In this document: in pieces, positions 4,001-32,900 of the stretch
Layout: each line of letters begins with the position of its first letter
Numbering within the stretch: the stretch's first letter is position 1
Source: Owenia fusiformis
Lineage: Eukaryota > Annelida > Polychaeta > Sabellida > Oweniidae
Direction: 5' to 3'
Assembly (NCBI GenBank): GCA_903813345.2
Contig: CAIIXF020000001.1
Coordinates: forward strand, 22,031,915 to 22,095,914
DNA: 64,000 bases
The notes under the pieces: generated by a model
What the model was told of the DNA's origin: nothing
Seen by the model: the letters and a program-made list of their open reading frames with translations, nothing else
Databases searched by the model: none
Program-made: the position numbers and the translations under genes

Positions 4001-7000
4001 GTTCCTCTTTAGATAATCCCAAGTTTTTTAAATTGTTAAAGTTTTTCACAAAACCTGGACACACAGCATTTACACGAACCCCCTGAGCTCCAAACTCAAG
4101 CGCTGCACATTTGACAAACATATTCAATCCTGCTTTTACAATGCTATCAAAAGGAGCGATGTCAGTTGCATTTGTAGAATATAAATCCGAAGTACAGACG
4201 ATGTTTCCTCCACTCTGCTTCAGAGCTGGGAAACACAACTGCGACAAATGCATAGGAGCACGAAGCATAACCTTCACCTCCAAATCAAATGCTTCCATTG
4301 GGCCTGTTGTTAAATCATGCGGTTCATAATACCCAGCGTTGCTGACTAAAATATCAATCCTTCCAAATGTTTTAATAGCAGTTTCTTTGATGTTTGCAAG
4401 GGTATTCTCATCCATTACATCCCCTTGGACATAGGGAAACATGGCATTCTCGGTACTGACACTTTTGCATTCAGCGACAGTTTCGTTAATGCCATTTAAA
4501 TCTCGCCCATGAACCAGAACACTTGCGCCCTCTTTAGCCAGTAACATTGCAGTAGCTCTACCTATACCACTACTAGATCCAGTAATAATCGCGCACTTCC
4601 CCGAAATCTCATGATGACTAGATCCCCTTTATTTCATGCACTATACGAGTATATACGAGTGTATTTGCAAAGATGCTCTATATACAAGTCATTGACATGT
4701 AGAAATTCTATTCATCTGACATGAACTTTGAACATGCAATGAATAGACATGGCCAGGTTTAAAATGTTCACTATAAACAGGACTGTGCAATAATAAATTA
4801 TATATGTCGTACATTAACGGTCTAGTTTGACACCAACAGACTCATGAATAGAGAAAAAATGTCGGAAGTAAAGTATAATTCATTTCATGCCAAATTGAAA
4901 TCAACGTTTATTGTAAGGTGGATACTGTTTTATATGTACAATCCATGCCATTTAATCTCTGTATTAAAGGTGCAACAATTAGTGCAAATGGGCCATTCAA
5001 CGATCAGGGACCAGTGTCAAAATATATTTAAGTTTGGATATTTCATCCAGACTAACATATATTTTTATGATCTACAAAGAAACCCCAAGGATGAACATTA
5101 TTTCAGCTGATATTCCACTTGTAACGTCGTGGATCTTAAAACTCTATAAGTGGGACTCCCTTTATAGAAGCTTTGAATTTGCACTTCTTAATGCTGAAAT
5201 TGATAGTTTACCCATATATTTTAAGAAAATAGGTATGTCAAAGAGGATGTTAAGCCAAATGTTGCCCTGATAGCTCAGAAAAAATAAAAAATTTCGAATT
5301 TTCTCTCTACAGTCCTTGTTGCCCCTTTAACCATTTGGGAATAAACAAATGACTTTTTGTTGAATGGTCGCCTAAAACACAATTCATTACAAAATTGATG
5401 AAAATATAAATGGATTGTTACACTAATGATAGATGTGTCTTGATGTGATGGTTGTTACTATAGTAATAGTGCCTTCGAGATTGAAATAAATCGCTAGACT
5501 TAAATGGTGGAGCTGACGGTTTAAAAACTGAGCAATACACTGTAAGTAACCTTTCGTCTCCTATTTTAGTTCCTCATGTGTTCATGAATAAAGTTGCCTG
5601 CAATGGTAACGAAGATAAGCTCCAAACGTGTGGGCTTGTCAAGTCTGTTGGAACCTGCCTTAAAAGTAAAGATGCATCCGTGTCATGTCTGAGAACGCCT
5701 ATCCGAAGTAAGTATATTGTTATACGAGTATTAAGAAAATTCAAATATTCGATCGATTTGATATTCGAATATTATTGCAACTGAAGTCCATGTATTGTTA
5801 TTTACCGATTTTACCTAGAATACATCTTCAAAATTCAATGTTAACGTTGTTTCCCGTAGATAGGGTCAGATTGGTAGGAGGGTCAGACTACGCAGGTAGG
5901 GTGGAGGTTTACCATAAACACAAATGGGGAACTGTTAAAAGTAGCAACAGACCATTCGGAATCGACCAACATGCTTCAACAAATAACTTTGAAAGAGTCA
6001 TATGCAGACAGCTAGGCCTTACATCAAACTTGGATAGTGCGACGAGGTAGGTTAGTTTAACTTGCTATGTTCAAATAAAGGCGAGGGCCATCGCGATTAT
6101 TACTTTTATGTATCATCAATGTTGTCGCTGTGATCAATGTAATGTTGCCAGCATTTGCCTTGAATTTCAAGGTACCTCGGATCACCATTTGGTTATGGAT
6201 CAGCCAGATCACTACCATACATCAAATGTTTTGGAAATGAGTCATCGGTTGAAGATTGTGTGCTTGAATGGTCCTCTAATCGTTATTGGCGTGCCCCAGG
6301 GTGGTTCCATTTATCAGATGCATCTTTGTCGTGCAAACCGCAACCGCTAGAAGGTATGATACCAAATGTGGCTTTATTTGCCAGAACAGCGTTATTCTTG
6401 GTCAAATTAATATTGAAAAGGTCATTGGTGTCTCTGAATTCCCATGGCACAGGGTATACTATCTATGTGACGTAAATTAATAAAGCTTTCTATTTCATAA
6501 AATTAGTGAGACTCGCTGATGGTGCCAAAAAGTCTCAAGGTCGTCTTGAGGTTAACTTCAATGGTATTTGGGGAACCGTTTGTGATGATCTAGTAACAGT
6601 TTCTGATGCTAGAGTCGTATGTAAGATGCTTGGGTACAACGACAACAGAGGTATTGTCGTACCAAGGGGAACTTTCCCTCCAGGTAAACAAAAAGCATCA
6701 ATTCATTTATCATGTTACTTACTTTCTAAAAATCACAATTTCCCCTTCATTTAAATCCAATGCATATTTTGTACAATCCCAAGTGACCTAGAAGGTCTTG
6801 GTAGATATCAGAATAAATTATTTTACCTCAATAGCTTTATAATTAATTGAGCCTGTTACCCGTTGACAATATTTTAGTCTAGCTACAAGTCTTTGTGGTC
6901 CTCCCCTACACACCTCCCCTCTGTATGAGTTTCATACATTTGAAGTCAAATAATGGGAGGGGGGTTAACAGGGGCTTGTAGCTAGACTAACAATCTTTTA

Positions 7001-10000
7001 GGAGATGGAATTCGAACATGGCTCTCAGCGATGAGATGTAAAGGATCTGAGACGATTATTGATACATGCGACAGAAATAAGATATTGCAAAAGTTTGGGA
7101 AGAAATGGGAATGTGGACATTCAGAGGATGTTGGAATAGACTGCGACCCTCCAATATCATCAGGTGAGGATCATTTGTAGATTAAACGAACGCAAAACAT
7201 AACTGATAAATGAATCAAATCAATATTCTTAATTTGAAAAAGTTATCTTAAGAATAAACACTAACCAAATGTTTTTTTCATTAGGAATTTAAATTATCAT
7301 AAAACGTGTTACTTTACATATTATAAATACTTTAACACGCGGTACTAACTTCGACCGTTAATTTGAATTTTTGACCTACCGGATGTTTGAAAGTCAAGGA
7401 TTACGGGTCTCGTACAGCACCGTTTTTCTTCAAACTTTCCATTCAAAGCATAACAAAAATCCCTTTCTGTTGGTACATTATTCTCTTAAACAGAGTCCCT
7501 ACTTCCAGCGGCATTTTGGTCCCCAGCTGTAAGAAGGCCTTCTAACAGCTGGGGACCAAAACGCTGCTAGAACGAGAGACTCTTTACAGTAAAGTAATGC
7601 ACCGACAGAAAGGCAATTTTGTTTTGCTTTTAATGGTATAAGTTTCAAGAAGAACGGTACAGTATGAGACTTGCAATCCTTCATTTTCGAGCATCTGGTA
7701 GGTCAAAAATTCAAATTAACGGTCGAAGTTAGGACCGCGTGTTTAAGGCCCCTACTAAATAATTTATGTTATCAGAGTTATGGAGGCTTTCCGGTGCGGG
7801 AGAAGGCGTCGGTGTGGTGCAGTACAACTATAATCTTACTGGCTTATGGGGAGTAATTACAATATTCGATGTTAATATAAAAAAGGCACTCGCCCCGCTA
7901 ATTTGCGATCATTTCGGGTACGATCCCGAAAATGCAAAATCACTGCGAGATTTTGACTACTACGACTCTAGTAAAGGTCTTCCCGTTATTTCAAACAAAA
8001 TCAGTTGTCCAACCCCAACGACTTCACTGCGTGATTGCAATGTCTCTCTTCTTCCACAACCCTCATTCTCATCACCACATAGGAACATGCTCATCGTATC
8101 ATGTATACCAGAGGACACAGGAAGTAAGTCACAATAACCAACATTCAAACGTCTTCTTCGATTTACACTATTTGCGCAAATACCAATTTGAAAGCAATAT
8201 TGAAATGTCAATCTTTGAATAAAATAGGTCAATATTTTGAAATAGTCAGGCTAACCAGTTGGAGCAAAATGATATTCCGAAAATGTACATCGACAACCAT
8301 ATACATGTGAATGTTTCAGTTCGACTAGTTGGTGGTAAAGATGACACGGAAGGGATGGTGCAAGTTAGGGGAAAGGGTATGTGGGTAGGCATGGGAGAAA
8401 CAGTATCCAGTCAATTCAACGACAATCATGCAGCTGTTGTTTGTCGACAATTGGGCTTCAAAGATACGTCAGAGGCAACGTCTTTAACAGGTAATCGCCT
8501 TTTACATTCAACAGAGAATATAGAACACAAATATGCAAAAAATATGGAGCCAATTATGAACATAAAAACAAACCCTGAACACCCAAAGCACGAACCAAAG
8601 TACAATGAATCAGCGCATTGCCGTTCATGTAGGTTTCATTTTGGATTTTCAGAAGCCTACTTTTCTAAAATGGATGTTTCAAACCCGATTGCGTTGCGAA
8701 TTAACGATAGAAATTGTCCGTTGGAGACAAATAAAGACATTATGAGCTGTATATATTCTGCGTGGTTTATCAATACATTTCCACCGGTGGAGCCTGCCGC
8801 CGTATCTTGTGTTAAACCAGCACGTGGTAAGTGAACATTGAATTCAGTCATTTACATTAATGAATTATATAACGGTTCTCATCTCTAGTTTTTGTGTCAC
8901 CACCGAAAGTGCCAACACATTGTTAGTTGTTACAGTCTCCAACTTTTTTGTGTTCGACAGTCTGCGTTCGGCGCCGGTCGGCGCCTCAGTACAAACTCTT
9001 ACAACTTCCAATAACCATTGCTGGTAAGTCACCAATCGTTACATAGGCCTACTTTATATAGACTCTTCGTTTAGAAACAATAAGACTCAGTGGAGGATCT
9101 CATTCATACGGCAGATTGGAAGTGTTGTACAAAGGAGAGTGGGGGACAGTTTGTGCTGCTGACTGGAGAGAACGGCAGTCCATTGTTGCATGTAGACAAC
9201 TGGGCTTTGGGAGCGCGTTCGCCCAACAAATACAATCTGGTATGTCTTTCTTTAGTAAAGAACAGATCGGGAGCGAATTCAGCTGGAATCAGCATCCTCC
9301 GAAAGCAGGGCTCCAGATATCATCCCCCGGGGTATCATCCACTATTGTTCCTCATTCATCCAGGGATTCAGGTCAATACTTCCTTTTTTGTGGAGAGAAA
9401 AAAAGAACAAAGTGGATGAAGTCTGATGATGTCTGGACCCCATACGTTCGGAGAATGGAATATCAGTCTTAAAACTATGACACTGTCCATACCTGCTATG
9501 ATAAAAGTAGGGAGAGATTCATAAAAAAGTGTTACACACAAACATGAAGTCGTGTCCCATGGTCCATTGGGAGGAGCATTTATTCGAAATTTTTGCCCAA
9601 TTAATCATTTCTTCGTGGCTTCAATAATATAACAACTTCTTCAGTGAGTGGCAAAAGCTTAACAGCAAATTGATATCCATTTTATATTTCTTGATCATTA
9701 GTCAAGTCATGTCTTATTGTAATTTCATTTCCAATGCAGGAACGTCAACAAAAGAAAATGTTCCTGAAAGGATTTGGTTGTATGACGTTGATTGTACTGG
9801 GGAAGAGAAAAGACTGGAAGGATGTCGACATAACGGTTGGGGTTGTGCTCCTTGTGAGCATGCGGAAGATGTTGAGATTACATGCGAAGAAGTTCTGGAA
9901 GAAGGTACGAAATATACACATTGTACAATAATATTAACAGTGTGATGATGGGTGATGTTATATTTCTCCCAATACCTTCCTCTTTCTGATTCACGCGTAC

Positions 10001-11340
10001 GATACTGAGTTGTCCAACTCCTAAACAGTGTCTGATTTCTCTAAATCCAACGTTTTTTTTATATTAGTTCGTCTTGTGGATGGAATCGGTCCCTACACTG
10101 GTCGGTTGGAGGTAAAACATATGGGTGAATGGAAGTCTGTGTGCTCCTACAATGGATGGGATAATAAACTTGATTCTAAAACTGTATGCAATCAACTAGG
10201 CTATACAACTGATGATCCAAACTTTATTTACGCTGCGCACAACGGTTGGTTTATAAAATGGAGAAATGGGTACCATTATTATCGTGAATCATTAAAAGAT
10301 GTTCAAATATTACATTTCGAAGAATCTGAATTCACATTCACAGTGAACGAAAATGTCACAGTTTCAGATTTATTATTTCAGAAAAGATCCGCATGGGAAC
10401 TGATGAAGAATTTTCCATGGTGAGGAGCAGGGTAACTTGCGACGGGACTGAGGACAACCTCGGACGATGCAGTCATCTACATGGATTCCTTTCTTTTGTC
10501 GAAGTTACTCCCTCCAGTCTCGGCAGTGCTTTGTATAATTGGTGCGTTCACGAAGACAACTCTGTGTGGATCTACTGCCCAACTGAGACACCACGTATGT
10601 TCCTTATTGTACTAACATGATTGAATTTAAACATCCATCTCATGTGAGAGGACCTCGTTCAGCAGTCCAAGGTGCAGATGCAAAAGTGCCAGAATCATGA
10701 AATCGTCTTTAGCCGAAGAGGGACAACGTATATTTGGATCTTTGGTACACCGAGATGTTTTATTTTTGATCAGACACAAAGGCCTATATACCGATACATA
10801 TTTCCCTTTCATCTTACAGTTGTAAATCCGACGGCTGAGTCCTGTAGCGATGGTTGGTTCCTTGAGAATATTGTGACTGATAAAATGGTTTGCGCAAAGA
10901 AAATAATCATGGAAGATTGTTCTGTAAGTTAATCAATTGAGCCAATGTATGGACGAAATTGAATCGACCATTTGTTTCTAACTGAAATACTAGACCAATC
11001 ATGGGCGTAGCCAGGGAAGGGGGAGGGGGTACAGTGGGTGCTACCCTTCCCCCACAAAAAAGTAATTTTAGTATGTCCCCGACTAACTGTCAAGCGTGAC
11101 ATATTCATCACATTGTGATTGTGTCTATCCATATCAAGTATTCTAATTTATTTTACCAACCAGGCAGCTGGACGCCTCACAGGTTATCCACTCATGTGTG
11201 AAGATGACGCAGGGAACATATCTATGACGGGGTTGAAAAGTGTTGACGGCTGTCCAACAGGTTTTGTGACAACATACGATACGTTTGATGAAAGCGATAT
11301 AGACTGGATGAATGATGTTATGTCAGCATATGGAGATTAG
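808..11340 (+). CDS. Secreted protein with eight SRCR domains (first paralogue), 20 exons
   Basis: Exons: 808-824, 972-1051, 1755-1954, 2122-2242, 2704-2799, 3346-3534, 5570-5707, 5860-6046, 6172-6353, 6507-6683, 7002-7163, 7776-8123, 8320-8490, 8653-8826, 9075-9239, 9740-9904, 10068-10244, 10382-10594, 10820-10923, 11164-11340. They sum to 3243 nt, an unbroken frame of 1080 residues plus stop, with matching phases at every GT-AG junction. The product has a signal peptide, SRCR domains A-H and a tail with five cysteines; no membrane span or anchor is seen, so secretion is inferred. Domain-defining motifs such as VRLVGG, WGTVCDD and VCRQLG recur. Most domains start and end at phase-1 junctions and are split by an internal intron, which fits group A SRCR genes. 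SRCR proteins generally bind microbial or protein ligands; the ligand here is unknown. A tandem paralogue lies at 20688-39553. The exon 1 start is inferred from the paralogue. Confidence 0.9.
1755..2799 (+). CDS. SRCR domain A, first paralogue (three exons)
   Basis: Exons 1755-1954, 2122-2242 and 2704-2799 encode residues about 33-171. All six group A cysteines are present: WGVIC, VVC, NAC, DC, ISC and VSC. Unlike the other domains it has two internal introns (phase 0, then phase 1), the same in the paralogue. The domain starts IRLTR, with extra residues before it, and lacks the usual VRLVGG opening. Confidence 0.88.
2871..2965. repeat. Partial short foldback repeat in intron
   Basis: Begins ttagtctagccacaagccc, as does the foldback at 6876-6990, and ends near a tagtcttgaag segment that is roughly its reverse complement. 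A further fragment of the same family lies near 21885-21925 (cacaagggcttgcagctat). It looks like a decayed small MITE. Confidence 0.4.
3346..5707 (+). CDS. SRCR domain B, first paralogue (two exons)
   Basis: Exons 3346-3534 and 5570-5707 encode residues about 172-280, with the canonical VRLVDG start, WGTICDD, VVCQQLG and four further cysteines (AC, TC, TC, SC). The intron between them holds the antisense dehydrogenase frame. Exon 3346-3534 shares about 67 consecutive identical bases with its paralogue, whereas exon 5570-5707 is clearly diverged. Confidence 0.9.
3792..4628 (-). CDS. Short-chain dehydrogenase/reductase (SDR), intronless, antisense in an SRCR intron; probably inactive
   Basis: One open frame on the minus strand covers a full classical SDR fold. 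From the N-terminus it shows the nucleotide-binding ITGSSSGIG (about 4590), the NAG motif (VSNAG), a Ser in the CTSD strand, KAGL after the catalytic site and the CPG loop, ending at TAA 3792-3794. Length (about 278 residues) is normal for the family. Two defects are visible. An in-frame ATG-AAA is followed at once by TAA (4629-4631), and the next in-frame ATG (4547) lies after the cofactor motif. The YxxxK motif reads DxxxK, so the general-base tyrosine is aspartate. Lack of introns and antisense placement suggest a retrocopy, but no poly(A) tract or flanking duplication is seen. An upstream exon supplying the start is possible (weak acceptor ctag near 4620). The paralogue's equivalent intron has no such gene. 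Confidence 0.75.
   Translation of the reverse strand, partial: RGSSHHEISGKCAIITGSSSGIGRATAMLLAKEGASVLVHGRDLNGINETVAECKSVSTENAMFPYVQGDVMDENTLANIKETAIKTFGRIDILVSNAGYYEPHDLTTGPMEAFDLEVKVMLRAPMHLSQLCFPALKQSGGNIVCTSDLYSTNATDIAPFDSIVKAGLNMFVKCAALEFGAQGVRVNAVCPGFVKNFNNLKNLGLSKEEQVELYSNCEKVVPIRKVGSVEETAKLIAFLASDDAAMMNGACVAQDGGHALIGLDKATLENAAKVFIQE
5860..6353 (+). CDS. SRCR domain C, first paralogue, lacking one disulfide pair
   Basis: Exons 5860-6046 and 6172-6353 encode residues about 281-403. The start VRLVGG and the VICRQLG core are intact, but the WGTVC cysteine is lysine (WGTVK) and the cysteine normally before the final VSC is also absent. Four cysteines remain (VIC, IKC, DC, LSC). The internal intron is phase 2, unlike the phase-1 introns inside B, D, F, G and H. 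Confidence 0.88.
6507..7163 (+). CDS. SRCR domain D, first paralogue
   Basis: Exons 6507-6683 and 7002-7163 encode residues about 404-516: VRLADG, WGTVCDD, VVCKMLG, then [18 protein letters not shown]. All six group A cysteines are present. The second exon begins about 12 bases after a small foldback repeat (6876-6990). Confidence 0.9.
6876..6990. repeat. Small foldback repeat (about 115 bp) in intron
   Basis: Left end ttagtctagctacaagtc and right end cttgtagctagactaa are reverse complements, with a C-rich left arm and G-rich right arm. It sits directly upstream of the acceptor of exon 7002-7163. Confidence 0.65.
7332..7747. repeat. Foldback element (about 415 bp) in intron D-E
   Basis: The outer arm reads aacacgcggtactaacttcg on the left and is mirrored on the right ending at cgaagttaggaccgcgtgtt. 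Pairing continues inward through tttgacctaccgg/aga to a central palindrome at about 7506-7570, containing ggtccccagctg and its complement. It ends about 28 bases before exon 7776-8123. No transposase frame is visible. Confidence 0.75.
7776..8123 (+). CDS. SRCR domain E, first paralogue; single exon, divergent
   Basis: One 348-nt exon encodes residues about 517-632, making this the only domain with no internal intron. The start [11 protein letters not shown] replaces VRLVGG, and WGVIT replaces [18 protein letters not shown] and VSC remain, so there are four cysteines. The cysteine that pairs with the missing WGTVC cysteine is also absent ([10 protein letters not shown]). The paralogue shows the same state. 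Confidence 0.85.
8320..8826 (+). CDS. SRCR domain F, first paralogue, lacking one disulfide pair
   Basis: Exons 8320-8490 and 8653-8826 encode residues about 633-747. The opening is [11 protein letters not shown]. The first-cysteine strand reads [11 protein letters not shown], with no cysteine. VVCRQLG, NC, SC and VSC are kept, and the cysteine normally preceding the final VSC is missing (PVEPAAVSC). Four cysteines, as in the paralogue. Confidence 0.87.
9075..9904 (+). CDS. SRCR domain G, first paralogue, with one extra cysteine
   Basis: Exons 9075-9239 and 9740-9904 encode residues about 748-857: [38 protein letters not shown]. Six canonical cysteines are present plus a seventh in NGWGCAPC; the paralogue has phenylalanine there. 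The extra cysteine could be free or form an intermolecular bond. Confidence 0.9.
10068..10594 (+). CDS. SRCR domain H, first paralogue, with long C6-C7 loop
   Basis: Exons 10068-10244 and 10382-10594 encode residues about 858-987: [28 protein letters not shown], then 24 residues before [13 protein letters not shown]. All six cysteines are present, with an enlarged loop between the fourth and fifth. The donor after 10244 is gttggt, weaker than the paralogue's gtaggt. Confidence 0.9.
10820..11340 (+). CDS. C-terminal cysteine-containing tail, first paralogue
   Basis: Exons 10820-10923 and 11164-11340 encode residues about 988-1080, ending at TAG. Five cysteines lie in the contexts ESCSDGW, MVCAKK, EDCS, LMCED and DGCPTG, followed by an acidic end ([13 protein letters not shown]). 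I do not recognise the fold. It has no hydrophobic span or GPI-type signal. It is among the best-conserved parts between the two paralogues, so it is probably functional. Confidence 0.85.
10999..11062. repeat. Fragment of a GCGTAGCCAG-type MITE
   Basis: The sequence tgggcgtagccagggaaggg followed by a G-rich stretch resembles the ends of the CAGGCCCGTAGCCAG elements at 52116-52252, 52291-52489 and 58503. It lies in the last intron, between the two tail exons. Confidence 0.35.
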
Positions 11341-11440
11341 AGAAACGTTTAGAAAAATATAACTTTATAAAAGTTTTTGCAAACCTCTCTTTTTGTACAG
11401 TTATATTCCATAGAAATACATACAAAGAACTCCAGACACG

Positions 11441-12160
11441 AGCTCACCCTATGCAGACAGAGCATGTGGGAAATATTGGGTGCGGAGCAAATGAGCGGAG
11501 GGTGCGGAGCTAACGGTTATTTTTGAATTTAAATTTGGGATATTTCTGAAACTAAGCCGTTTTGGGACTTCAAATATACCAAGATATGTGTATTTGACAC
11601 CAAATATCAATACAATTGTGAAAATAGTAGCGCAGTTCATTCTATAGCGACGCAGTGTGCCTTAAACCTTTCCCAGACCTATATATTTTGAAATTATCCT
11701 TTTAATACTGAGTCCCCAGCATTCATAAAAAATGGTGTTCAAGGTGCACTATCTATACAAATTATTTTTGCATCTTGGAAGCCAGGCAGTATCTGTGTGA
11801 TTTTATAAAAATTCTGAAATTTTTTCAGATATGAGCCCCCTCTAAATATTGGGTGCGGAGCAGCTCCACAAACGTAGCTCCGCACCCAATATTTAGAGGG
11901 GGCTCATATCTGAAGAACATTTCCGAATTTTTATAAAATCACACAGATACTGCCTGGCTTCCAAGATGCAAAAATAATTTGCATGGGTAGTGTATCTTGA
12001 ACACCATTTTTATGAATGCTGGGGACGCAGTATTAAAAGGATAGTCTCAAAATATATAGGTCTGGGAAATGTTTAAGGCATACTGCGTCGCTCCGCACCC
12101 TCCGCTCATTTGCGCCGCACCCAATATTTCCCACAGGCTCTGTCTGCATAGGGTGGAGCT
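11441..12160. repeat. Foldback element (about 720 bp) rich in GTGCGGAG
   Basis: The left end agctcaccctatgcagacag and the right end, which reads tgtctgcatagggtggagct, are reverse complements. Arms of roughly 350 bp pair through ggaaatattgggtgcggag to a centre near 11870 (gcggagcagctccacaaacg). A short acgag occurs at both edges and could be a target duplication, but it overlaps the arm. No coding capacity is seen. Confidence 0.8.
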
Positions 12161-12204
12161 AAAACGAGACGAATAATGGATATAACGCAAGAAAACTTGC
12201 AGAA

Positions 12205-13119: not shown

Positions 13120-16100
13120 TTACAATAGTGTAATATTGGTTGCTTCAATAATTAATAGTGATAACTTCTTTAGGAGGATAGCATTTTTTGTTTTCATCAA
13201 TTGGATGAATTGATCTGTGCTATAGTTTTCTACAAAGGTAATGTCAAGACTTAATCTAATATTATGGTATCTAGGACACTTACACATTACATGGTACTCA
13301 TCCTCTATTATTATGGTACAATATTTACACATTCTATTGTCTCTTACAATATTACGGTGTCTTCCCGTTTCAATTTCAAAACAGTGGTTCGAAACTCTAA
13401 ATTTTGCTAGAGCTTTAATACATCTATATTCTAAATTACATAATAAATAAAATTCAGGCTCTAAAATATTTTTAAATTGCATATATGTATATAATTTGGG
13501 GCTTTCCCTGAGTTTCCCTAGCCAAGCTTGGCTGTACATATCCTGAAGTCTTTGCTTAAATATAAAAATAAAATATAATTGGTTCCCTACACTTTGCTCA
13601 AACCATGCATGTCCAAATCCCAGTGAAAAAAGCAAATATTTGATTTTTGATGCCCGAGTTGTTTTTCCCGATTGATCTAGTTGATAAAGCATTGTATAGC
13701 ATGATTTAGGATGTCTATGATTAGGCATTTCTGTTAATTTTATCCAGTATTTTATGGTTTTAAGCATATAAGTGGTACAAAGTGGAAGTCTGCCACATTC
13801 GCCTAATGCTGCTGCATCATTTGATTGTGGTCCCACACCTATAAAATATTTACAAAACTGAGCTTGTGTACATTCAATTACATTACACCATTCATATCCC
13901 CACATCTCTGAACCATAGCACAAGATGGGTGTTACCATGGCATCAAACAGAGAGAACATAAGTTTAAGTGGTATTCTTCCACACTTTTGGTTAAGTTGTT
14001 TGAGTAAAATAATAGATTTCTTTGCTTGTGAAGCAAGCTGACTTTTAGCTGGAGACCAGGAGAGTCTTGTGGAAAATAGTATACCTAGATATTTATAATA
14101 TGATATTTGTTCTATCTCTGCTCCTTCAAAATAAAATTTTTCATTTTGCCTGAGGGGACCACCATTCCTGAACACCATCACATTTGTTTTGGATAAATTT
14201 ACTTTCATTCCCCATTTACGTGAAAAGCTACCTAAGGTATCAAGTTGTTTTTGCACATTTGGTACAGTGTTACCTATACAATTTAAGTCATCCACATAAC
14301 ACAATGCCATTATATTAGGGGAACCTTCTACAATATGGATTCCTTGGCAGTTTTGTTCCCTCAGCATGTTAAAAAATGAGTTTACATACATAATGAACCA
14401 CGTTGGGCTGAGTGAATCTCCTTGAAATATACCCTTTGTACATGGAAAAAAAATTGTAATTCCTTTTACATGTTTAATAGTATGGATATCTTGCTCTATA
14501 TTTACATTTATCTCGCATTTAACACAGCATTGAAGTTTACTGTACATCGATTGATATAGTTTTAACACGTTACCATGGATACCTGTAGTCATCATTTTAT
14601 AAAATAGGTGGCGGTGGGGTATATTATCAAACGCTTTTGAGAAATCAATTAAAATACAATAGAACCTTCCACCTGGTGTTGACAAATGTTTCTGGGTCAT
14701 TGCTGATAAAGTGAAAATATTATCAATTGTACTGTACCCTGGTCTCGATCCCGCTTGGGATTCATCTATAACGCTGTTACCTTTACTCCAATTTAACATC
14801 CTTATATTGAATATTGAATTAAACATCTTTGCTAAGGTCTCAAGAAGTGAAATACCTCGAAAATTTGAACATATATAGGTTCCCTTTTTATGAATAGGGC
14901 ATATTATTGCTTTGCACCAGTCATCAGGGTAAATCCCTGACTTTAAAATCGCATTATACAGTTCCACCAATTTAGGGGTAATGATGTCCTTTGTATGTAC
15001 AATAAATTCATTTAAGAATCCACTCAGTCCGTGTGCTTTGTCATGTTTTAGTTTATTTATACAGAATGTAACTTCCTCCGTTGAAATTGGATCATTTAAT
15101 ATATCTGGGTCATTATTATCACATTCAATACACAGGTTGTCATGGAGTTGCATGGTATGATCTATCCGTATTTTAAATTCCTGGTCAATATTTACAGTTT
15201 CATCATTCAGTAGTGAATTGAAATAGTCTTTCCAATCATTAGGGTCAATATTGATATTAGGTTGTTTCTTTCTTAACAATTGTTTGATTGTCGCCCATTT
15301 ATTGTTACGGTCTTGTATTAGTCCACACATCTTTGCTTTCAGTTTGTTCTTCTTAAGTTTAACTGATGTCTTGAATTGATTCCTGTATGTTGTATATTGT
15401 TCGTAATCGGTTTGGTTGCGTGTTGTCCTGAAAATGTTCAATTGGCGGTATTTCTTGGCTTTCAGTTCCTGTAGTTCATTATCCCACCATTCTGGTTGTT
15501 GGGGTTTGTTTTTTGCCCGTTTGCTCGATGATTTTTGTTTCATGCTTGCACCTGCTCTTGTGTATATATTGTTCAGGACATTTATACTTTCATTGATGTT
15601 GCCATCATTTATCAGATGTGAAAAGTTCTGCAGGAGAGCTTTTGTTTCATCATCACACATTGTTCTCTGAAATGTTGGTTCTTTATCATGTTTCCATTTA
15701 TAGGAATCGGTTTTTATTATTTGCGGGTTTCGGTTAATGTCTTGTTGCTGTTCATGGAGGATATTAATGTTTAACTGCAGGAGTGTTGGGTAATGGTCAG
15801 ATTCGTCAATTGTTAGTACAGAAAAATTTTCAATTTTATCAAATAATGAATCTGGTGCTAATGTGAGATCTACTTGGCTGAGTCCATCATTTGATATACA
15901 TGTGAATTCTCCTTCTGGGTCACCCTTTGTTCTTCCATTTACGATGTGAATGCCAAATGTTTTACATATATCAATAAGAGATCTGCCATACTGGTTATCT
16001 ACTGTGTCACGGTTTGCTCTTGGTTTTTGAAAGTTGTCAAGGTTATATAGTTCAGGAAAAGGGATATTCTCTGCTGTGTCTGGTGTGATATAGTCTCGCA

Positions 16101-16584
16101 ATTGTGCAGTTCTACAGTTTGTATCACCACTTAATAATATGTCACATTCTGGCACTTTCTCCAACAAATGGATGATTTTTGTTTCCAATAGAGATATTCC
16201 GTCCTCTTCATGGTTATAAAGTGAAGATCTTTCTGGAGCTACATATATGCACAATAATCCAATATCTTTATCTTATCCGAAGTAATGTTTACTTAGTTTA
16301 AAGGCTACAGATTCTTTTAGGTTATGACATACACGTTTGATCCCATCTAATAGTGATTTACGAACGAATACACATATCCCTCCATGGTATCTGCCTCTTG
16401 ATTTAGTTTTAGGTCTGCTTAGACCAAAGCATTTATGCGTATCAAGTAAATCGTCAAAATCATGATTCGTTTTTGCCCAAGTTTCACAGATATTTATAAT
16501 GTCATATGATTTGAAACGTTCAAGTAGTTCCCCTTTATTTGTATGTTGCGATAGACCATGTGCATTCCATTGTAATATAGTCAA
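13120..16584 (-). pseudogene. LINE ORF2: endonuclease-reverse transcriptase, one in-frame stop
   Basis: About 1154 codons in one frame, interrupted only by TAA at 16273-16275. The N-terminal apurinic-type endonuclease shows LQWNAHGL, the acidic ICETW, the GDTNCRT strand and ESDHYPT. The reverse transcriptase follows with SRPGYSTIDN, LIDFSKAFD, GIFQGDSLSP and the catalytic YVDDLN near 14290. The C-terminus carries a CKYC...HVMCKC zinc-knuckle-like motif. Length and domain order are those of a complete ORF2. No ATG is visible in frame between the ORF1 stop and the endonuclease, so its natural start is unclear. The single stop suggests recent inactivation. Confidence 0.88.
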
Positions 16585-16623
16585 TATTGTTTGGTTTGTT
16601 TGTTTCGGGCCTTGGCCATGCCC

Positions 16624-20132: not shown

Positions 20133-20217
20133 TAGCCTTGCCCAAGTCGGTCTCTTTTACTTATCTTGATTTCTGTTATGACCAGATAAGTAAAAAATAC
20201 CGACTTGGGCAAGGCTA
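20133..20217. repeat. Short hairpin repeat (about 85 bp)
   Basis: tagccttgcccaagtcgg...acttatct on the left pairs with agataagt...ccgacttgggcaaggcta on the right. A second, less perfect copy lies at 34147-34228 in intron G-H of the second SRCR gene. Confidence 0.7.
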
Positions 20218-20902: not shown

Positions 20903-23900
20903 GTATTAATTACATTTACAAACTTTAATATTGATCATCAGATTTCTTAATGGAGCTACATGCATATGACACAGTTCGAAATTGAATATCATTATTATTG
21001 TTAGCTGTTACATCTTCGTCCTTGGTTGTTACTGTTTTTGCTTTTGAAAATCAGGCAGTAAAACTTGCAGGAATGGTAAAACCCCGTTAATATAAAATCG
21101 TATTTGCTGACAAAATGCTGGACTGTTTAAACCACTTCAGCTAAATACATCATTGATATCAATATCATATTCTTAGAGATAAATACTCGTATCAAGAAAA
21201 CGATCGAATCGTATGTCCATAGCATAAACATGTAAGAATAGAGAACAGACTGCTGAAAGCAAGTATCGTGAAAACTTAATGTGCATATTTTAATAATCAT
21301 GTGCGCATTAAAGGACTTGGACCAACAAACGCAGACATTACAAGTATTCGGCTAACTAGGTCACGTGAAGGAAGAGAAGGTCTTGAGGGACAAGTCGAGT
21401 TGTACTTTAACAATAGTGCAATAATGACACCCCAATGGGGCGTGATATGTGGGGATTTCGATGAAAATGCTGCCAAGATTGTATGTAGGGAGCTCGGTTT
21501 CCCAGTGGGCACTCGAGCAGTTCCACTTCTAGTAAGAATAATAACAATTTTAACTAGTAGCGTGTATTATGACTTTTGTTTGAACAAAATGCAAACGTTT
21601 TGGGATAAGTTCGTCAACGGTGCACGTCAATTTCTTCTGTGGTCATTATCAATTTTCATATTCTGAAAACTCCCACCATTAAAGGATTCTCATTTCGGAC
21701 TACAAGATAGGCAGACGTTCATACATCTTCCTCTAAATGCGTGTGCGGGTGATGAGGAAAGGCTGATAGAATGTCAACATTCGCCCATCCTGGAGGAACA
21801 TTGGCCCGAAGGTACTGTAGGAAGTATTAGAGTTGCTTCAAGTCTTTGGACCCCCTCTATCCCCTTTACCACAAATGGAACTGGTAATGGAGGGTCACAA
21901 GGGCTTGCAGCTATCTCCAGATTTCTTTAGTAACTTGAAGCATGAGTTTCCGAAATAATTAGATGATTTCAGCATGTTCAACCTTTTCATCACACATCCC
22001 GTCCTCTTAGTTCTTCATAAGTCTCTCTGGGGCCTCGATCGTGTGACACAAACATTTTTCACACCTCTTCGATTCCAGACATTTCATGTAATCGTACGGA
22101 CATCCACAGGGATAATGAAGACGGTTCCAAGAACATCATTGGCGTCTCTTGTGGTTCCGAACCCGATATTGAAGGTAAGTGAAATGAACAATAAAGTTAC
22201 AAACTTGATTAGATAGAATTTTGAGTTAGATTTAGTTTATAGATGGCCTATAGGCCATCAGCTTCACCCCAAAATTTAGGTTATCGGTACCAAGTTAGGG
22301 GAATAAGCCTCATTGTGATTTTTGGCAAGGTAAATACCTCTAGAGTAAGAAATTATATGATAGCATTGCAGGAGTGGCAGCTAAATGGTTGTTATCACCC
22401 ATTTTTCAAAATGGCCGCCGGTGCACTTACTACCAAATAAAAGAAGTTATATCAAAGCACACTGAGAGACAAAAACAGTGATTTTGAGGTCTATTTCAGG
22501 GTTTTAGGGGTCAAGGATTTCATTTAAGTCAAAATCTAAGTCATCAAAGAATTGGAAATCCAAGATGGCCGCCATAATGGATGTCAAAACAAATATGTCA
22601 CTATTGATATAAGTTCAAAAAGCTCAAAGAATGGTTAAAAAGTGACTTTGGAGACCATGAAAAGGTTTAAGAGGATAGGGATTTTATTTGTCTCTAAATC
22701 TAAATAATAATCAAAGAACTACTTTACATAGAAATCCAAAATGGCCACCAAAATGAATGTCAAAATGAATACGTAACTATTTATGTAAACTCAAAAATGG
22801 TTGCTTTTGCAGACCATGGTAAGTTTAAATAGAGGTTAAGGATTCCATTCATGTATAAATTGAAGTGATTAAAGAATACCTTTATACAGAAATCTAAACT
22901 GGCTGCCAAAATGGCTGCAAAAATGAATTTTTAAGCACATAGAAAAATTAGAATAGTTATGTTATAGATATCTGAGACTGGGTTTCAGGAGAAAATGGTT
23001 TCAATTTACCTTTACTTAAGTTATCTTAACCTTTCCTCATATTAAAATCCAAAATGGTCACCAAACTGGCTGCCAAAATAAATTACAACATTCACATGGA
23101 GCATGACTCAACCATCTAACCTATTTCCTTTATTTGCCATCTTGAAGTCCACAGGCTGCAGACCTAGTTCTCTCAACATGATTTTCCGAGAAGAACATTG
23201 GAAGCCTCTAAAGCCTACATGAACTGGGAAGTGTCTCACCTTCCACCCTTTACACCTTACTTTGTCAATGAGGTCTTCATTCTCGGCACTCTTCAGTCTA
23301 TCCGAGATATTATCTTCTGTGTAATTGTAGACTTGGATTGAGTCTGTCCTTTCTTTACAGACCTACGGCCCTCGGGCAGATATATTATATTGGCCTTGGG
23401 ATAATCCCCATATCCTGAACCTCATATAGGATAATCTCTATGTACCAACTCCCTACATTGCTAAGGTCAATAGCTTTCATCCACTTTTCTAGTTCTCACA
23501 GATGCTGTTGTTGGGACCCATCAAAATATTTTGCCAAAATATATTCAATTCTCTCATCATGGATAGTATGAAAAAAAAACATTAGCTTCATTTGTTACTC
23601 TGCTTGCAGAGTCTAGTTAAACTAGAGATGAAGCTCTCTTTTCTGAAGCGAAGTCGAATTAATGCAAAGGATATTCCTTTGTATACCACTCAGTTGAAAA
23701 GATTCCTGGGATTGCACTACATATATCTCATCTTCTCCAAGCAGCTTAAAATCCGTTATGCTCCAGGAAATGACTAGGTCATAACATTAATGATGTCCAA
23801 AAAGGCTAGGCAAGAAAGATGTCTTGTATCATCATTCCCTTTGAGACCTCCATATTAGGACTCTTCTGCTTTCATAAACCAGTTCATTGTTTTGATGAAG

Positions 23901-26900
23901 AGAGTACAATTGAGATGGTACATCACATCAGGGCCATCTTTGATATCCAAATGAATATGTTCCAAAATTAATTATTCATTTTGGCAGCCATTTTGGTTGC
24001 CATCCTGAATATCCAAATAAAAGAATTATTTGATGACTTAAAGTTCTCAACCATTTAAACCTAGCCATTGACTTAAAATTATCGACCTCTGAAACCTAGA
24101 CATGGTCTCCAAAATCACTTTGTAATTGTTCATTGAGCTTATATAAATGGTAACTTATTCATTTTGGCATCCATCTTGGATTTCCCTTCAAGTTATTCTT
24201 TGAAAACTAAGACAATAAAATTATTGATCCCCAAACCCTTTCATGATCTACAAAACTACATTTTAGCTATTCTTTGAGCTTACATTAATAGTTACATGTT
24301 CGTTTCGGCACCCATATTGGCGGCCATTTTGGTTTTCTATGAAAAGTAATTATTTGATTACTTAGACTAAAATGAAGCATAAGTGAAATCATTAACCTCT
24401 AAACCCTTTCATGATCTATAAAATTGCTTTTTATCTGTTCTTTGAGCATGTATCAATACATGTAGTTACATATTCCATTTGGCACCTATTTTGGCGGCCA
24501 TCTTGGATTTACATATAAGGTAATCCTTTGATGACATAGATTTAGACATGAATAAAATCCTTAGGCTTGAAAACCTCTTCTAAAACTCTTCAAAATCATT
24601 TTGAAACGTTTTAGCTTGTATCATTAGTTACATATTTGTTTTTGAACCAAAATTGGTGGCCATCTTGGATTTTCGTATGAATTTATGTTTTGATGACTTG
24701 GATTTATGCATAAATTGAATCAGTGACTCCTAAAACCCAGAATTAGACCCTAAAATTACTGATTTTGCTTCTCAGTATGCTTAGATATAACTTCTTTCAT
24801 TTGGTAGCAAGCGCACCGGCAGCCATTTTGAAAAATGGGTAAAAACACCCATTTAGCTGCCACTTCTGCAATGCTATCACATATTTTCTTACTCTAGGGG
24901 TGTACACCTTCCCAAAAATCACCATGGCCATTATTCCCCTGATTTGGTACCGACCAACCCCCCAGGCTGATCGCCTACTACGAGAGGTTTGCAAATGCAA
25001 TAATATTATAAAAATTGAGACTGTTCAATGCTTTGTTGGTGAAATACATCATAAGTTAATTGTTGCTTGCCTTAAACCAAAACAGAAGGTCAAGATTTAA
25101 GGCTAGGACATAATCAACGATTGTTTTAGCACACAAAAAGCACACAAAGTCAAAACAACCGTTCATCTGCATGCTGTAAAGTGTAGAATGACTTTTTTCC
25201 GTTTTGATTAGCCGAAATGTGATATATCATGCTTAATGAATACACAATGCATCCATATCAAACTCTCATATCCATACCCAATTATAGTTCGACTTGTTGA
25301 TGGAAGAGACGAAACAGAGGGCAGGGTCGAAATGAGTTACTATGGTACCTGGGGTACTATATGTGACGACTCTTGGGATGACAACGATGCCAAGGTCGTA
25401 TGTCAACAGCTGGGTTTATACCAGACCCATGGCAAAGCATATAGCATGAGGGCCGCCTATTTTGGCGAGGGCCAAGGTACCTAATTTAATAATTTCCTCC
25501 TATGAAAATATACATGTGAATGTGCAAGGGGCATCCATGTACAGGATCACCAGAGACTGATCGATGGAAATATCTTAAAAATATTCAAAGATCACTGAAT
25601 TCAACAATTTGCATTCGAATTGTTCACACTTGTCATAATAATGTTATACGTGGTTTTTGCCACCTATTAATGATTAATTTAATGTTTGAATTGTTTGGCT
25701 GTATAATATGAAATGCTTGGCTGTGACATGAAAATGCTTGGCTGTGAGAGATATTTAGATCGTCTAGTCTTACCGTACTCGCAAATATGAATAACGAATA
25801 TAAGTTACATAATACAATTACTTTATTATTGTGTAACCTTTAATCAACTGTGAACGTGTAAACAATAATATGTACGTTAAACCATTTCACTTTCGTTTAC
25901 CTCGAATACAATGCTATATGTCTGTCAGACCAATGTTAAATTCGGCATCCTCGATTACCTAGTTTTCTCCATTTCCTTTCCTCGGCTCCTTGACTTATTT
26001 TCCGACATCATGACGATTGTAAGTTTTCAGATTCTTTTCCGCTATCTTCCCACCATCTTTCCACTATCATTTTCTTCACCCTGATCTTACATTCATTCAC
26101 AACTTATATACCATTTGAAACGTTAACAAGACGCATCTCATCATTGACTCTGATTGGTTACTTATTACATAGAGTTCTAAAGATAGAAATGATGTCATTG
26201 TCAGGATAATGCAAGAACAGACAAACGTTGGACCTTCGTCATGCACCTGGCTATAATTGATTACTGGAAAGCTGATTTACATATTTAGATCCAGTCATAT
26301 CAGGAGCATGTTTATAAACAGAACTGACCTCAGGATGTACCTAATAAATCTTGAGCTGTCAGCATTGTGAAATACTGTTCTCAACACTAACATGAATTGA
26401 ACCTACTTTACATTCTTCCTTTGCAGTGCCTCACGTATTTATGAATAATGTTGCTTGTGATGGGATTGAAGATAAAATAGATGAGTGTGGTCTTGTCAGG
26501 TCTGTGGGAAACTGCCTTAAAAGTAAAGACGCATCAGTGTCATGTTTGAGAGAACCTGTTCAAAGTAAGTAACCATATCCTGATATCGTGGACAAAGAAT
26601 TAGAAAACCACTGAGTCACGTGGAATAATCTACTTGTTAAGGGCTTTTTTACCAATTAACTGTACCGAAATTGTGTAAACAGATGTTATTTCCTCTTATA
26701 ACGATATGATGTTGAAAGGAGCACGTAGGTTATCGCAAACAATTTCAAACGATTCTAACTTGAATTATGAATATTTTCTGATCATGAACATGGATGTATC
26801 TTTTAGATCCATTCATTATCTTCAAGAAAAGTATATATAATGATAATTTAGTTAATCAGACCTAAGTGATATTGAAGGGGCAATGGACCAATCAACATAC

Positions 26901-29900
26901 TTTTTCAAAAATGTTGACCTAATTTTCACCAAAAATGCAACCTATTATTATATTGTTGAATGCATAATTAGAATGTGCTTTGAGACATGTTCAAAATCCT
27001 AAAAGGAAAATTTGATTGCTCCAGGGACTTTAAAGATATTCAATTTGGATGACCAAAATGAACTGAAACAAATGGATAGCATGAGATTTTTCAATGGAGA
27101 AATAACATGGGGAACTCTTATCTTAATGCAATTAAGTTTTTCTTTCAAGAACTGTTTGATACATCAAAATAAAGAATAGTAATGCATTAAACATTGTAAA
27201 AAATGATTGCATTTTTGGTGAAAATGGGGTCAACATCTTCAAAATGGGGTAAAAAAGTGTGTTGATGGGTTAATTGCTAGTTAAATATCTCCGAGTTTGT
27301 TTGAATTTATTATTACTGTGCATAATTTTCATTGAGATAATGAATTGATCTAAAAGATAAACTTGTCTTCATTGTCAGAAAATAGTCATAATCCAAGATA
27401 TAACCTTCTGAAATTGTTTGCGATAACCCACGTGCTCCTTTCTAAATGTTATGCCAAAAGACAAAGCAAATAATAAATAAATAAATACTTCCTGTAGATA
27501 GGGTGAGACTAGTAGGAGGGTCAGAGTACGCTGGTAGGGTAGAGATTTACCATAAACTTAAGTGGGGAACTGTTAAGAATAGCGACAAACCATTCGGAAT
27601 CGACCAACATGCTTCAGCAAATTACTTCGAAAGAGTCATATGTAGACAGCTTGGTTTAACAACAGCGTTGGAGAGTGCTGTCAGGTACTATCGTATGCAT
27701 TCGTTCAATTTCGCTTCTTAAAACTAGATTTAGCGCGCAGGGTAGTTATCATGAAACTACTCAATTCATATCAGTAACTGTGACGTTTACGACCAGGTCA
27801 TTCATATTTGTTTTATATTAATGTTCATATGACCCATTTCTATTTGCTAAAGATACCGTGGATCCCCGTTCGGTTACGGATCAGATAGATCCTTACAGTA
27901 CATCAAATGTTACGGAAATGAATCCACGATTGACGACTGTGTACTTGAATGGACGTCCAACCTCTATTGGCGTGCACCAGGTTGGTTCCATTGGTCAGAC
28001 GCATCAGTGTCCTGCAAACCACATCCTTTAGAAGGTAAGACGTCCACGTCCATAATGTTATGTTCGAACATACATTTAAGTAGCTACTATAGTAGTATAT
28101 GATCTCTGTAAAAAACGTTGTATTTGACAATGTCTGAACTTGTGTTTTGAGGGAGGGGCGAAAACCAGTCATCCTTGCCTATAGGAAAATGAGCTAACTT
28201 TTTTTTAGAACAGTGATATTAGCGTGTTCACTGGTGATCCACTCGATTACGCTGGTTACCAAAACGAACCGTTTTGGTAACAAAATGTCGGAACATCCGG
28301 AAGGTACGATTTTTCTCGTTTCCTTATTTTACACGTTGTAGGCAGAATTCCAACGACATTTTTTAACACAAACGTGTATCAGTATCATATGTTTAAGAAA
28401 GTGTACATATTCGCGAACAAATAGTTCAGAAGACAACAGAATCGTCGATTTACTTCCTCACTTAAGTTACATAAACGGTTTGGGTTAAAAGTGCAGATCT
28501 TAACTGTTTTTCGAAAAACCGTTTATGTAACTTAAGTGAGGAAGTAAATCGACGATTCTGTTGTCCTCTGAGCCAATTTATTGCAAACATGTACATTTTC
28601 TAAAACATATCATACTGATGCACGTTGTGAGAAGAAACGTCGTGGGGATTCTGCCTACAACGCGTGAAATAAGGAAAAAAGAAAAATCGTGCCTTCGACG
28701 TTCCGACATTTTGTTACCAAAACGGTTCGTTTTGGTAACCAGCGTAATCGAGTGGATCACCAGTGGTGTTTTTATTTCATTTAATTAGTGAGACTTGCTG
28801 ATGGTGCCACGGCATCACAAGGTCGCCTTGAGGTTAACTTTAATGGTATTTGGGGAACCGTTTGTGATGATTTGGTAACTCCAACTGATGCTAGAGTTGT
28901 ATGTAAGATGCTTGGATACAACGACGGCAGAGGTATTGTCGTACCAAGGGGAACTTTCCCTCCAGGTAAACAAGAATCATCAATATATTTGTTTCTCATG
29001 TTTCAGAGAATTTCATCATTCCCTAATGCATAACAATATTGTCTAAACTCTGGTTCATCAGATGGTTTTGCAAGATATCTTGATAGGGAAGATCACCGAT
29101 AGCAAAATTAATGTTCCTATTAAGGCATATGCTTCAGTCTTGCACTTGGTCTAATATCCAAAAACCGTTGTTTAACTTGATGTGTCACCCTGCTGTCTCA
29201 ATTGATACAAAAACTATGAATTTCTTTACAAGGAGACGGTCTTCGAACTTGGATCTCGGCGTTGATGTGTGGGCCATCTGACACGATCATCGATAACTGT
29301 GACAGAAATAAATTAAAATTTGGCAAGAGATGGGCATGTGACCATTCTGAAGATGTCGGTATAGACTGTGACCCGCCAACATCGAAAGGTGATCGGTTCA
29401 AATTACATAGTAGCCGAGACAACACAAGTCCCAAGTCTGTATATTTTTTCTCATTTCTCCACTTTTAAAAGTTAAGTCACCACATTTTGCATGCACATTC
29501 CTTGGAGAAATCCTAACATAGAATTTTATTGGTTTTGATTATAATTTATTTGTTAAATATAGGGAAACATTTGATTTTGACTGGTCTATAATCAAAATTT
29601 TCCATTTTGTGTAACAAATGCAACATTTTGACATTATTAATAAAACTCCAAGTTATAAATGACAGATATAATATGGTGACTCTAATCTTATTGACAATAA
29701 CTAATTAACTATCACTAGTTAATTTTTGCCAGTCATCAGATCATGCAATGGAAGTGTACCTCAATAAGAAATGCATTCATTGATTGTGGCAAGTAGTGAA
29801 TTGTCAAAAGAATGTTGGAGTTGCACCATTATTTTGCTGCATTTTGGTGCTTCTTTTTCCATTAAGGTCGTTTTGGTACCACTGTGATGTCATAATATAT

Positions 29901-32900
29901 AATTTGATGTCATAATATGGGTACCAAATTGAATCACACATTACAAGCTTTAGGATGATACCAAATATGCCATCATTCATTTGATTAAAATGGTAACTGG
30001 AATAAGCTCAAAAGGTATGCCACTCCCCTATCCCATCCATTTTTCAGGTCATTGAAACATGCCAAAATCTCAAATAGTGCAGGCATCTTCATGGGTCGTT
30101 TTTGGCCCCGTTTTATTTAAAATATCATGTTTCTGCATGTCATTTTTCTCGGAAATGTCTCAACTACCTAAAACAGTTACATTTGTGCTGAATAAGAAAA
30201 CATTTGGTCATTTTCGAGTTATTACATCAAAAGTAGAGACTTTTATTAATTTTATCAAAATGTTGCATTTGTTACAAAATGGCAAATTTTTGTTATCGGC
30301 CAATCAAAATCAAATGTTTCCCTATTTTTAACAAATAAATTATAATCAAAACTAATGAAATTCTATGTTAGGATTCCTCCAAGGAATGTGCATGCAAAAT
30401 ATGGTGACTTAACTTTTAAAAGTTAAATATGTAAGTGTAAGTTGAACAAACCAGAATTGAAGTTCCAATTTTACTTGTATTTTTATAGTGTAAAATCGGT
30501 CTTAGTGAACACCCCCTCTCTAGTTACCATCGCTGTAGTGGACACTTACCAACACTGAACATTATTTTCTTGGCAAAAAATGTTCAATTTACAGACAGAG
30601 TATCGATTGTTTTAATATTTTCCAAACTACATTAAAAATATGTTTGACATCAGATCTTAAAAGGGGGATGTTAGATGTGTGTTACCCATGCAATGAAATA
30701 ATATTAATATGCATATACCATTTGTCTAATATTTTGTATCCTCCAACACACTGGTTAAATTAACATTGCTGGTGCATCATTTGTTTAAGATTTCGCCAGA
30801 AAGTGCCTTTAAGGATTACCTCTTAAATGACAGACAAACACCAAACAAAATATTGTTATTTTTGTACCTGGATCTAGGTTTTGCTGTCCAATATTTGGTA
30901 TATATATTATTTGGGGCACTTAAAAAAAAATCACATTTTCTGAGCTATATGTTGACGAGACATTTTTATACAACTCATATTCAAGATACAATACCTATAT
31001 TGCTAGATCATAACGAGAACATTTTTTGAATCTGTAGTTCTCATGCGATATCTAAGGGGGGGGGGCTATCTACCAACTGTGTTTACAAGAATAACAGATT
31101 GCGTGATCTCTGTGTTGCAGAGTTGTGGAGGCTGGCCGGTGCAGGGGAAGGTGCCGGTGTGTTGCAATACAACAACAATGGCATATGGGGAATATTTACG
31201 ATGTTCAGTACTAGTACAAAGGCTTCACTCGCCCCCCTTATTTGCGAATATTTTGGGTATGATCGCAAAAATGCAAAGGCACTGCGAGATTATGAATACT
31301 ACGATTCCAGCAAAGGATTCCCTGTTATTTCGAACCAAATCAGATGTTCAGCCCCTAGGATTTCACTACGTGATTGCAAACCATCTCTTAGGACACCTTC
31401 ATACAAAGTAGCACATAGGAATATGCTTATCGTGTCATGCGTGCCAGAGACAGAACCGGAGGATACAAGAAGTATATTGTTCTTTTTTGTGTATTTACTC
31501 TCTCCATTCCTCTAGTTTATAATTTCTTTCTTATTAGAATTGATATTGACATTTGTTTGAAATGATGCACAAGTCTATATCGAGCTAATAAAAATCAAAA
31601 TTAAACAAAGAACACATCATCTTAACGCCATCTTTATTATTCAATCAGCGTAATAATCCGGAGCCCAGAAAACACTACTGTACATTGTACCACGATATTA
31701 TTATGCCACCACCCCAAGTGATAACATATCTCCAACTTTTTTGTGACGGCGTTAGGCGTCTGTGATCGAAGATCGGCGCGTGCAACAAATGGCCGGTGGT
31801 GACATTTTGCATGTTAATTCCACGTTCATTCGTATTTCAGTTCGACTAGTTGGTGGTGAAGATGATACTGAAGGTATGGTGCAAGTGAGGGGTAGGGGTA
31901 TATGGGTAGGGATTGGAGATTCTCCTACTAGTCATTTTAACGACAATCACGCTGCAGTAATTTGTCGACAATTGGGCTTCAACGATACATCAAATGCTGC
32001 TTCATTAAAAGGTACTTTGTTTCTGTGCGTATCTATTTAGGCTACTGAATGCAAATGTGATCTTAACCCTATAATGACTAATAAATGCATGTTTTCAGCT
32101 AGTACAATAGATCATGTTTATATTTAAATGTCTTTCATTACTTTGATAAAAATACGATTATTTGTCCTAGACTTGACGTGTGTTTCATTTCAAACTTTTC
32201 AGAATCCTACTTTTCTAAAATGGATGATCCAATAGTGTTACGGATTAAAGATAAGTTTTGTTCCCTGGAAACAAACATGGATATCAGGAGATGTACATAT
32301 CCTGCCTGGTTCATAGATACATTTCCAACTATGGATACTGCGGCTGTATCGTGTACAAAACCAAAACGCGGTAAATTTTCGTTATTTGAATCATTTACAC
32401 CGATAATGAGATTGTTTTCAGGACTGGCATGTCCTTCATCGACATGGGTTATTTTGCCATAGTAGTGTTTTCTGTCAATTCATATATTTACATGAATATA
32501 ACTGCTTCTCATACATTATACAGGGTTAACAAATTGATACCTATAAATTACGTTTTCAATTAAGTTTTTGCTCCTCTGTATTAAATCCATTTTGTTTAGA
32601 AACGTTAAGACTTAGCGGGGGTTCTGATTCGTTCGGTAGATTGGAAGTGTTCTACAAGGGAGAGTGGGGGACAATCTGTGCTTCAAACTGGAGGCAACAA
32701 CATTCCATCATTGCGTGCAGACAACTTGGCTTTGGCAGCACCTATGCACATAAAATACCTTCAGGTACCTTTGCAGGCAACATTAGGGAGGTCAAGATAA
32801 ACGTTTTTAAAAAATTGTACGTAAACGTAGAATAATGGTCCCCTGTGCGTTAGTTCTCCCATTTGTTCTGTTCAGCTGTACCTGTGTTGCTGATTGCGTA

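Follow-up and report, generated by a model that had tools for sequence, protein, structure and literature searches.

Three of eight SRCR domain types in two neighbouring genes of Owenia fusiformis lack cysteines C2 and C7

Introduction

Scavenger receptor cysteine-rich (SRCR) domains of group A carry three disulfide bonds, C2-C7, C3-C8 and C5-C6. The group A domain is described as having six cysteines and being encoded on two exons (PMC3100851), and SRCR domains with six, seven and eight cysteines have been described (PMC10855680). Here we examine two neighbouring SRCR genes of the annelid Owenia fusiformis, in which three of eight domain types, named C, E and F, have only four cysteines. Both genes lie in a stretch of 64,000 nucleotides (assembly GCA_903813345.2, contig CAIIXF020000001.1, positions 22,031,915 to 22,095,914 of the forward strand), which we call the window and in which all coordinates are given. 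Domains C, E and F are probably group A-descended SRCR domains from which the peripheral C2-C7 disulfide has disappeared. The number of such losses would lie between one and three, and their simplest timing is ahead of the gene duplication.

In one account of the SRCR structure, the fold is closed by C1-C4 and C3-C8, which tie together its ends and the helix, while the remaining two pairs stabilise a loop-rich region (PMC11058800); the residue numbers given there are inconsistent in print, with Cys35-Cys99 assigned to two pairs. A two-bond SRCR domain has been described in MSPL and placed in 'group C' with reference to Ojala 2007 (PMC8046417). For TMPRSS2, a homology model gives the bonds Cys172-Cys231 and Cys185-Cys241 (PMC7535071), whose spacings of 13 and 10 fit C2-C3 and C7-C8, so that C5-C6 would be the bond absent there. 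The sea cucumber SRCR domains that PMC13228809 describes are assigned by it to group A in most if not all cases.

Results

The two genes follow one another on the plus strand. Each has 18 coding exons that encode eight SRCR domains (A to H) and a five-cysteine tail (T):

1755..11340, plus strand: SRCR gene copy 1, 18 coding exons, A1 to H2 plus tail exons T1 and T2
21335..39553, plus strand: SRCR gene copy 2, exon layout and phases as in copy 1

Six cysteines are present in A, B, D and H of both copies, seven and six in G of copy 1 and copy 2, respectively, and four in C, E and F of both copies, which thus depart from the six-cysteine pattern of group A. The order along the protein is 6-6-4-6-4-4-6(7)-6. 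Cysteines C3, C5, C6 and C8 are kept in 16/16 domains. C2 and C7 are both absent from all six copies of C, E and F and from none of the ten other domains, and no domain among the 16 lacks only one of the two. The four-cysteine domains are:

5860..6353, plus strand: copy 1 domain C, exons 5860-6046 and 6172-6353, phase 2 internal intron; four cysteines, C2 replaced by K and C7 by W
7776..8123, plus strand: copy 1 domain E, one exon; four cysteines, C2 replaced by T and C7 by S
8320..8826, plus strand: copy 1 domain F, exons 8320-8490 and 8653-8826; four cysteines, C2 replaced by G and C7 by F
27498..28034, plus strand: copy 2 domain C, exons 27498-27684 and 27853-28034; four cysteines, C2 replaced by K and C7 by W
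31121..31471, plus strand: copy 2 domain E, one exon; four cysteines, C2 replaced by T and C7 by V
31841..32370, plus strand: copy 2 domain F, exons 31841-32011 and 32203-32370; four cysteines, C2 replaced by G and C7 by F

An earlier sequence-only reading of this DNA had reported four cysteines in C, E and F of both paralogues, with C2 and C7 gone, and the rebuilt gene models and alignment confirm it. The motifs that it gave around the lost C2 (WGTVK in C, WGVIT/WGIFT in E, WVGMG/WVGIG in F) are correct, and its limits are exact, with the first exon of domain C in copy 1 starting at 5860 and the second exon of domain F in copy 2 ending at 32370.

The residues listed above were read from an alignment of 19 rows, in which the C2 and C7 columns hold cysteine in A, B, D, G and H, K,K and W,W in C, T,T and S,V in E, and G,G and F,F in F. 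An alignment of 16 rows differs at the C2 column, with F,F for E and V,P for F, and shows N,D for domain A in the C7 column because the C7-C8 spacing of this domain is 21, not 10. Domain A still has six cysteines, and C, E and F contain no additional one. Between C5 and C6, the spacing is 10 in A to E, G and H, and 11 in F. If the losses at C2 and C7 were independent, the probability that the same three of eight domain types are affected at both would be 1/56, a figure that assumes independence of the domains. Two further departures were noted: domain A has a third exon (2704-2799 and 22079-22174) in addition to its C7-C8 spacing of 21 versus 10, and domain G of copy 1 has a seventh cysteine (within 9740-9904), reading WGC where copy 2 reads WGF, which could be a free or inter-chain thiol.

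Gene models were assembled by hand from splice sites, starting from a comparison of two DNA stretches of the window, the conserved blocks of which translate as SRCR half-domains. The reading frame is open to a single terminal stop in both genes, intron phases match between the copies, and GT...AG is found at 34/34 introns, partly by construction as the sites were chosen. A 16-domain profile search of the window (six-frame stop-to-stop open reading frames of at least 20 residues, up to E 10) matched 29 reading frames, all 29 of which contain an exon of the two genes; it picked up neither of the short A3 exons. The first exon was not found in either gene: a signal-peptide exon was sought upstream, with no candidate for copy 1 and three unconvincing ones for copy 2.

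In C, E and F of both copies, the conserved W and C3 are on one exon, and so are C6 and C8. Both absent positions therefore fall inside single exons between kept landmarks, and mis-joined exons do not explain the pattern; missing micro-exons were ruled out as a cause on the same ground. Domains B, C, D, F, G and H have two exons, E has one and A has three, and the internal intron is of phase 2 in C, absent in E and of phase 1 in F. The intron layout is not sorted by cysteine class. The intron within domain F of copy 1 (8491-8652) has 162 bases, a multiple of three, without in-frame stops, and would add an in-frame segment to the domain if retained; the corresponding intron of copy 2 has 191 bases and an in-frame stop.

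Domains A to H of copy 1 and E of copy 2 were scanned with the Pfam SRCR profile (PF00530, cut-off 26.1 bits), and 9/9 score above the cut-off, at 27.3-91.8 bits, with 45.2 for C, 40.7 for F and the lowest scores, 29.0 and 27.3, for E. The SRCR_2 profile (PF15494, cut-off 27 bits) gives no match for C and both copies of E and 16.7 bits for F, and is just passed by two six-cysteine domains, B (28.0 bits) and G (27.4 bits). Copy 1 C and F match SRCR chains in the PDB by sequence, with CD163 best. For E, a structure model was made from 16 supplied rows, 14 of them covering the N-terminal half only; its mean predicted local distance difference test score (pLDDT) is 68.8 and its predicted template modelling score 0.61. 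In this model C3 (residue 44) lies in the helix 33-46, and C8 (residue 110) just after the last strand, 107-109. Foldseek with the model gave 86 matches up to E 10, two of them below 0.001, both SRCR (best E 1.8e-4). Among the best 50 of the 86, rows 1-17 are entries of CD163, neurotrypsin, LOXL2, SCARA1, TMPRSS2, factor I and hepsin, as identified by entry title; in complexes, the matched chain may differ from the SRCR chain. Domain E is likely an SRCR fold, a judgement that leans on its relatives.

The ratio of non-synonymous to synonymous divergence between the copies (dN/dS; Nei-Gojobori) is 0.148 in A, 0.168 in B, 0.112 in C, 0.184 in D, 0.316 in E, 0.178 in F, 0.158 in G, 0.092 in H and 0.182 in the tail, and thus nowhere above 1. 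Pooled values are 0.188 for the four-cysteine domains (349 codons) and 0.147 for the six-cysteine domains (597 codons), with a one-sided permutation p of 0.136. Identity between the copies is 66.4% in E, 70.8% in F and 76.4-88.5% in the other SRCR domains. By this measure all domains are under constraint, somewhat weaker in E, and positive selection is not indicated. That C, E and F are decaying and on their way out is very improbable. Domain E does have the highest dN/dS, the lowest identity and the lowest Pfam scores, but the frames are open, the upper bounds of dN/dS are 0.19, 0.58 and 0.30 for C, E and F, and both copies retain all four of the remaining cysteines. The sequence-only reading had favoured removal of the bond over decay, and in this it holds up, given the paired absence, the lack of any leftover cysteine, dN/dS of 0.11-0.32 and Pfam SRCR scores above the cut-off. 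Removal of the bond may have been tolerated or selected; dN/dS nowhere exceeds 1.

Two domain trees were built, one from the 16 rows and one from 19 rows (the 16 plus three CD163 domains, with the C2 and C7 columns dropped). In the 16-domain tree the two copies of each domain group together (ultrafast bootstrap 91 to 100), which is most simply read as a gene duplication that came after all eight domains existed. The loss therefore counts at most once per domain, and its presence in both genes, which had been offered as an argument for removal of the bond, is real but weak as an argument, most simply reflecting one inheritance. The sequence-only reading took the loss to have happened three times, which is not established: the best tree needs two changes in both runs, and a clade of C, E and F is not rejected (approximately unbiased test, p-AU 0.253 with 16 rows and 0.217 with 19).

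A single loss, with one ancestral four-cysteine domain copied within the gene, is a minority possibility. Consistent with it, C+E (p-AU 0.476) and C+F (0.193) are also not rejected in the 19-row tree, in which E and F, adjacent in the gene, group weakly (77/78). Against these stand the two changes of the best trees and the share of bootstrap trees with a single change, 4% (16 rows) and 0% (19 rows) of 200. The internal intron also differs among C, E and F, although intron changes are required on either view. One CD163 row is long in the 19-row tree.

We also compared the domains for their ligand sites. In a different explanation, C, E and F would form a distinct functional class, in which the ligand loops, once released from the C2-C7 clamp, became longer and able to bind without cations, a change favoured by selection; we regard this as unlikely. 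In the SALSA sequence, an acidic pair presumably follows C2, and N1081 and E1086 presumably flank C7, which fits the published numbering of the cation sites. Cation site 2 of SALSA consists of D1019, D1020 and E1086, and site 3 of D1020, D1058, D1059 and N1081 (PMC7043408). D1019, D1020, N1081 and E1086 would thus adjoin C2 and C7. Also in favour, the distance from W to C3 is longer in C, E and F (26, 19 and 20) than elsewhere (16 in A, 17 in B, D and G, 19 in H), but H reaches 19 with both cysteines kept.

Equivalent cation positions were scored by counting from W and from C8; the count is off by one residue in H, which has a C7-C8 spacing of 11. A DD pair after C2 is found only in B and D, and D, D, E at the three site 2 positions only in D among the eight domain types:

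6507..7163, plus strand: copy 1 domain D, six cysteines; D, D, E at the three cation site 2 positions
28789..29388, plus strand: copy 2 domain D, six cysteines; D, D, E at the cation site 2 positions

None of the three site 2 positions is acidic in C and E. Among the six-cysteine domains, the DD pair is likewise missing from A, G and H, of which A and G each have a single acidic residue, whereas four-cysteine F is acidic at two of three (E at both in copy 1, D at both in copy 2), its loop alignment being uncertain. The state of the ligand site is not following that of the cysteines, and dN/dS is not significantly raised in the four-cysteine domains. Loss of the cation site was considered as an explanation of the cysteine loss and is not borne out, as A, G and H are without DD despite six cysteines. 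The proposal that four-cysteine and canonical domains alternate and form two functional classes is not supported, on the same grounds and on the domain order, since E and F are adjacent, as are the six-cysteine pairs A-B and G-H. It is likewise unlikely that C, E and F are 'minus C2-C7' modules in which release of the bond, adjacent to the canonical cation site, and a longer C2 loop give a cation-independent binding surface, one protein thus having both kinds of unit.

Other features of the window

Both genes end in a tail that is more alike between the copies (10820-11340 and 38806-39553; synonymous divergence, dS, 0.18) than the SRCR domains are (0.50-0.92), and gene conversion at the 3' end may account for this similarity:

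10820..11340, plus strand: copy 1 C-terminal tail T, two exons, five cysteines, no Pfam match
38806..39553, plus strand: copy 2 C-terminal tail T, two exons, five cysteines

An intronless short-chain dehydrogenase reading frame (3792-4628, minus strand; Pfam adh_short_C2, E 1.1e-46) lies within the B1-B2 intron of copy 1. Between the two SRCR genes, 13120-16623 on the minus strand holds reading frames resembling a long interspersed nuclear element, of which 13120-16272 matches reverse transcriptase and endonuclease, and 16273-16623 matches endonuclease more weakly, just below the cut-off. One reading frame of 510 codons at 55529-57061 on the plus strand matches the Major Facilitator Superfamily.

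Discussion

The pattern in C, E and F is probably explained by removal of the C2-C7 bond from SRCR domains of group A descent. The loss would most simply have preceded the gene duplication and then been inherited by both copies. C3-C8, from the helix to the last strand and closing the core, and C5-C6, spanning a short hairpin of nearly constant spacing, would be the remaining pairs and would be enough to hold the fold. The loop that formerly carried C2 now differs in length, most clearly in C, and purifying selection would have continued to act on the three domains as ordinary units of a protein with several SRCR domains. By analogy with SRCR proteins, export of this protein is probable; the search upstream gave no convincing signal peptide. 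The lone member of a broken bond would be a liability in an exported protein, and paired loss is therefore to be expected; that the two cysteines are gone together also speaks for a C2-C7 bond in the ancestral domain. In C, E and F the removal was probably tolerated, and by itself it defines no functional class.

Several points weigh against bond loss from group A ancestors. The pairing of the four remaining cysteines is one that we infer. Neither tree settles how the domain types branch, and each comes with a long-branch warning (D with G for the 16 rows, E and F with A for the 19 rows). No orthologue from another species was found: a search of genome contigs with copy 1 domain C gave 28 pattern matches, none of them confirmed. 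Copy 1 domain B had no relatives among viral contigs, and such searches covered domains C and B only. With copy 1 E by itself as query, phmmer matched no SRCR chain of the PDB up to E 10. Structure prediction, which had been suggested for each domain, was carried out for E and gave an SRCR fold at modest confidence with 16 rows, but the model is poor with the two E rows alone (mean pLDDT 45.3), so that the other SRCR rows carried the 16-row model. For the potato PI-II inhibitors, the authors of PMC3073943 inferred positive selection, and neutrality is thus not the rule for such losses.

In these inhibitors (7C/6C forms; PMC3073943) and in the minus-C odorant-binding proteins (PMC5034290), both unrelated to SRCR, a bonded cysteine pair is likewise absent. 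The direction of change in the latter is disputed, as the minus-C state is perhaps ancestral rather than a loss (PMC5034290), and an absent bonded pair is also documented for a Kazal domain (PMC1236909). Among the matches listed in the open-licence literature, we found no described SRCR domain without C2-C7.

Compared with group A domains such as those of MARCO, SCARA1 and LOXL2, domains C, E and F are alike in fold family (PF00530) and in C3, C5, C6 and C8, and the two-exon layout of group A is found in six of the eight domain types. Group A has three bonds, whereas C, E and F, without C2 and C7, can have at most two. The seven-cysteine 'Group C' SRCR domains, found mainly in sponges (PMC10855680), are also an invertebrate departure from the six-cysteine pattern, but they have one cysteine more and have lost none, unlike C, E and F. 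In invertebrate surveys, 'six cysteines' should be used with caution as the mark of group A. The SRCR domains of hepsin and the TMPRSS proteins resemble C, E and F in having two bonds, fewer than group A, with the SRCR fold kept; the cysteines retained differ, being C2, C3, C7 and C8 by spacing in hepsin/TMPRSS and C3, C5, C6 and C8 here. With C5-C6 absent from TMPRSS-type domains (by spacing) and C2-C7 from C, E and F, the comparison suggests that C3-C8 is indispensable and that either peripheral bond can be dispensed with.

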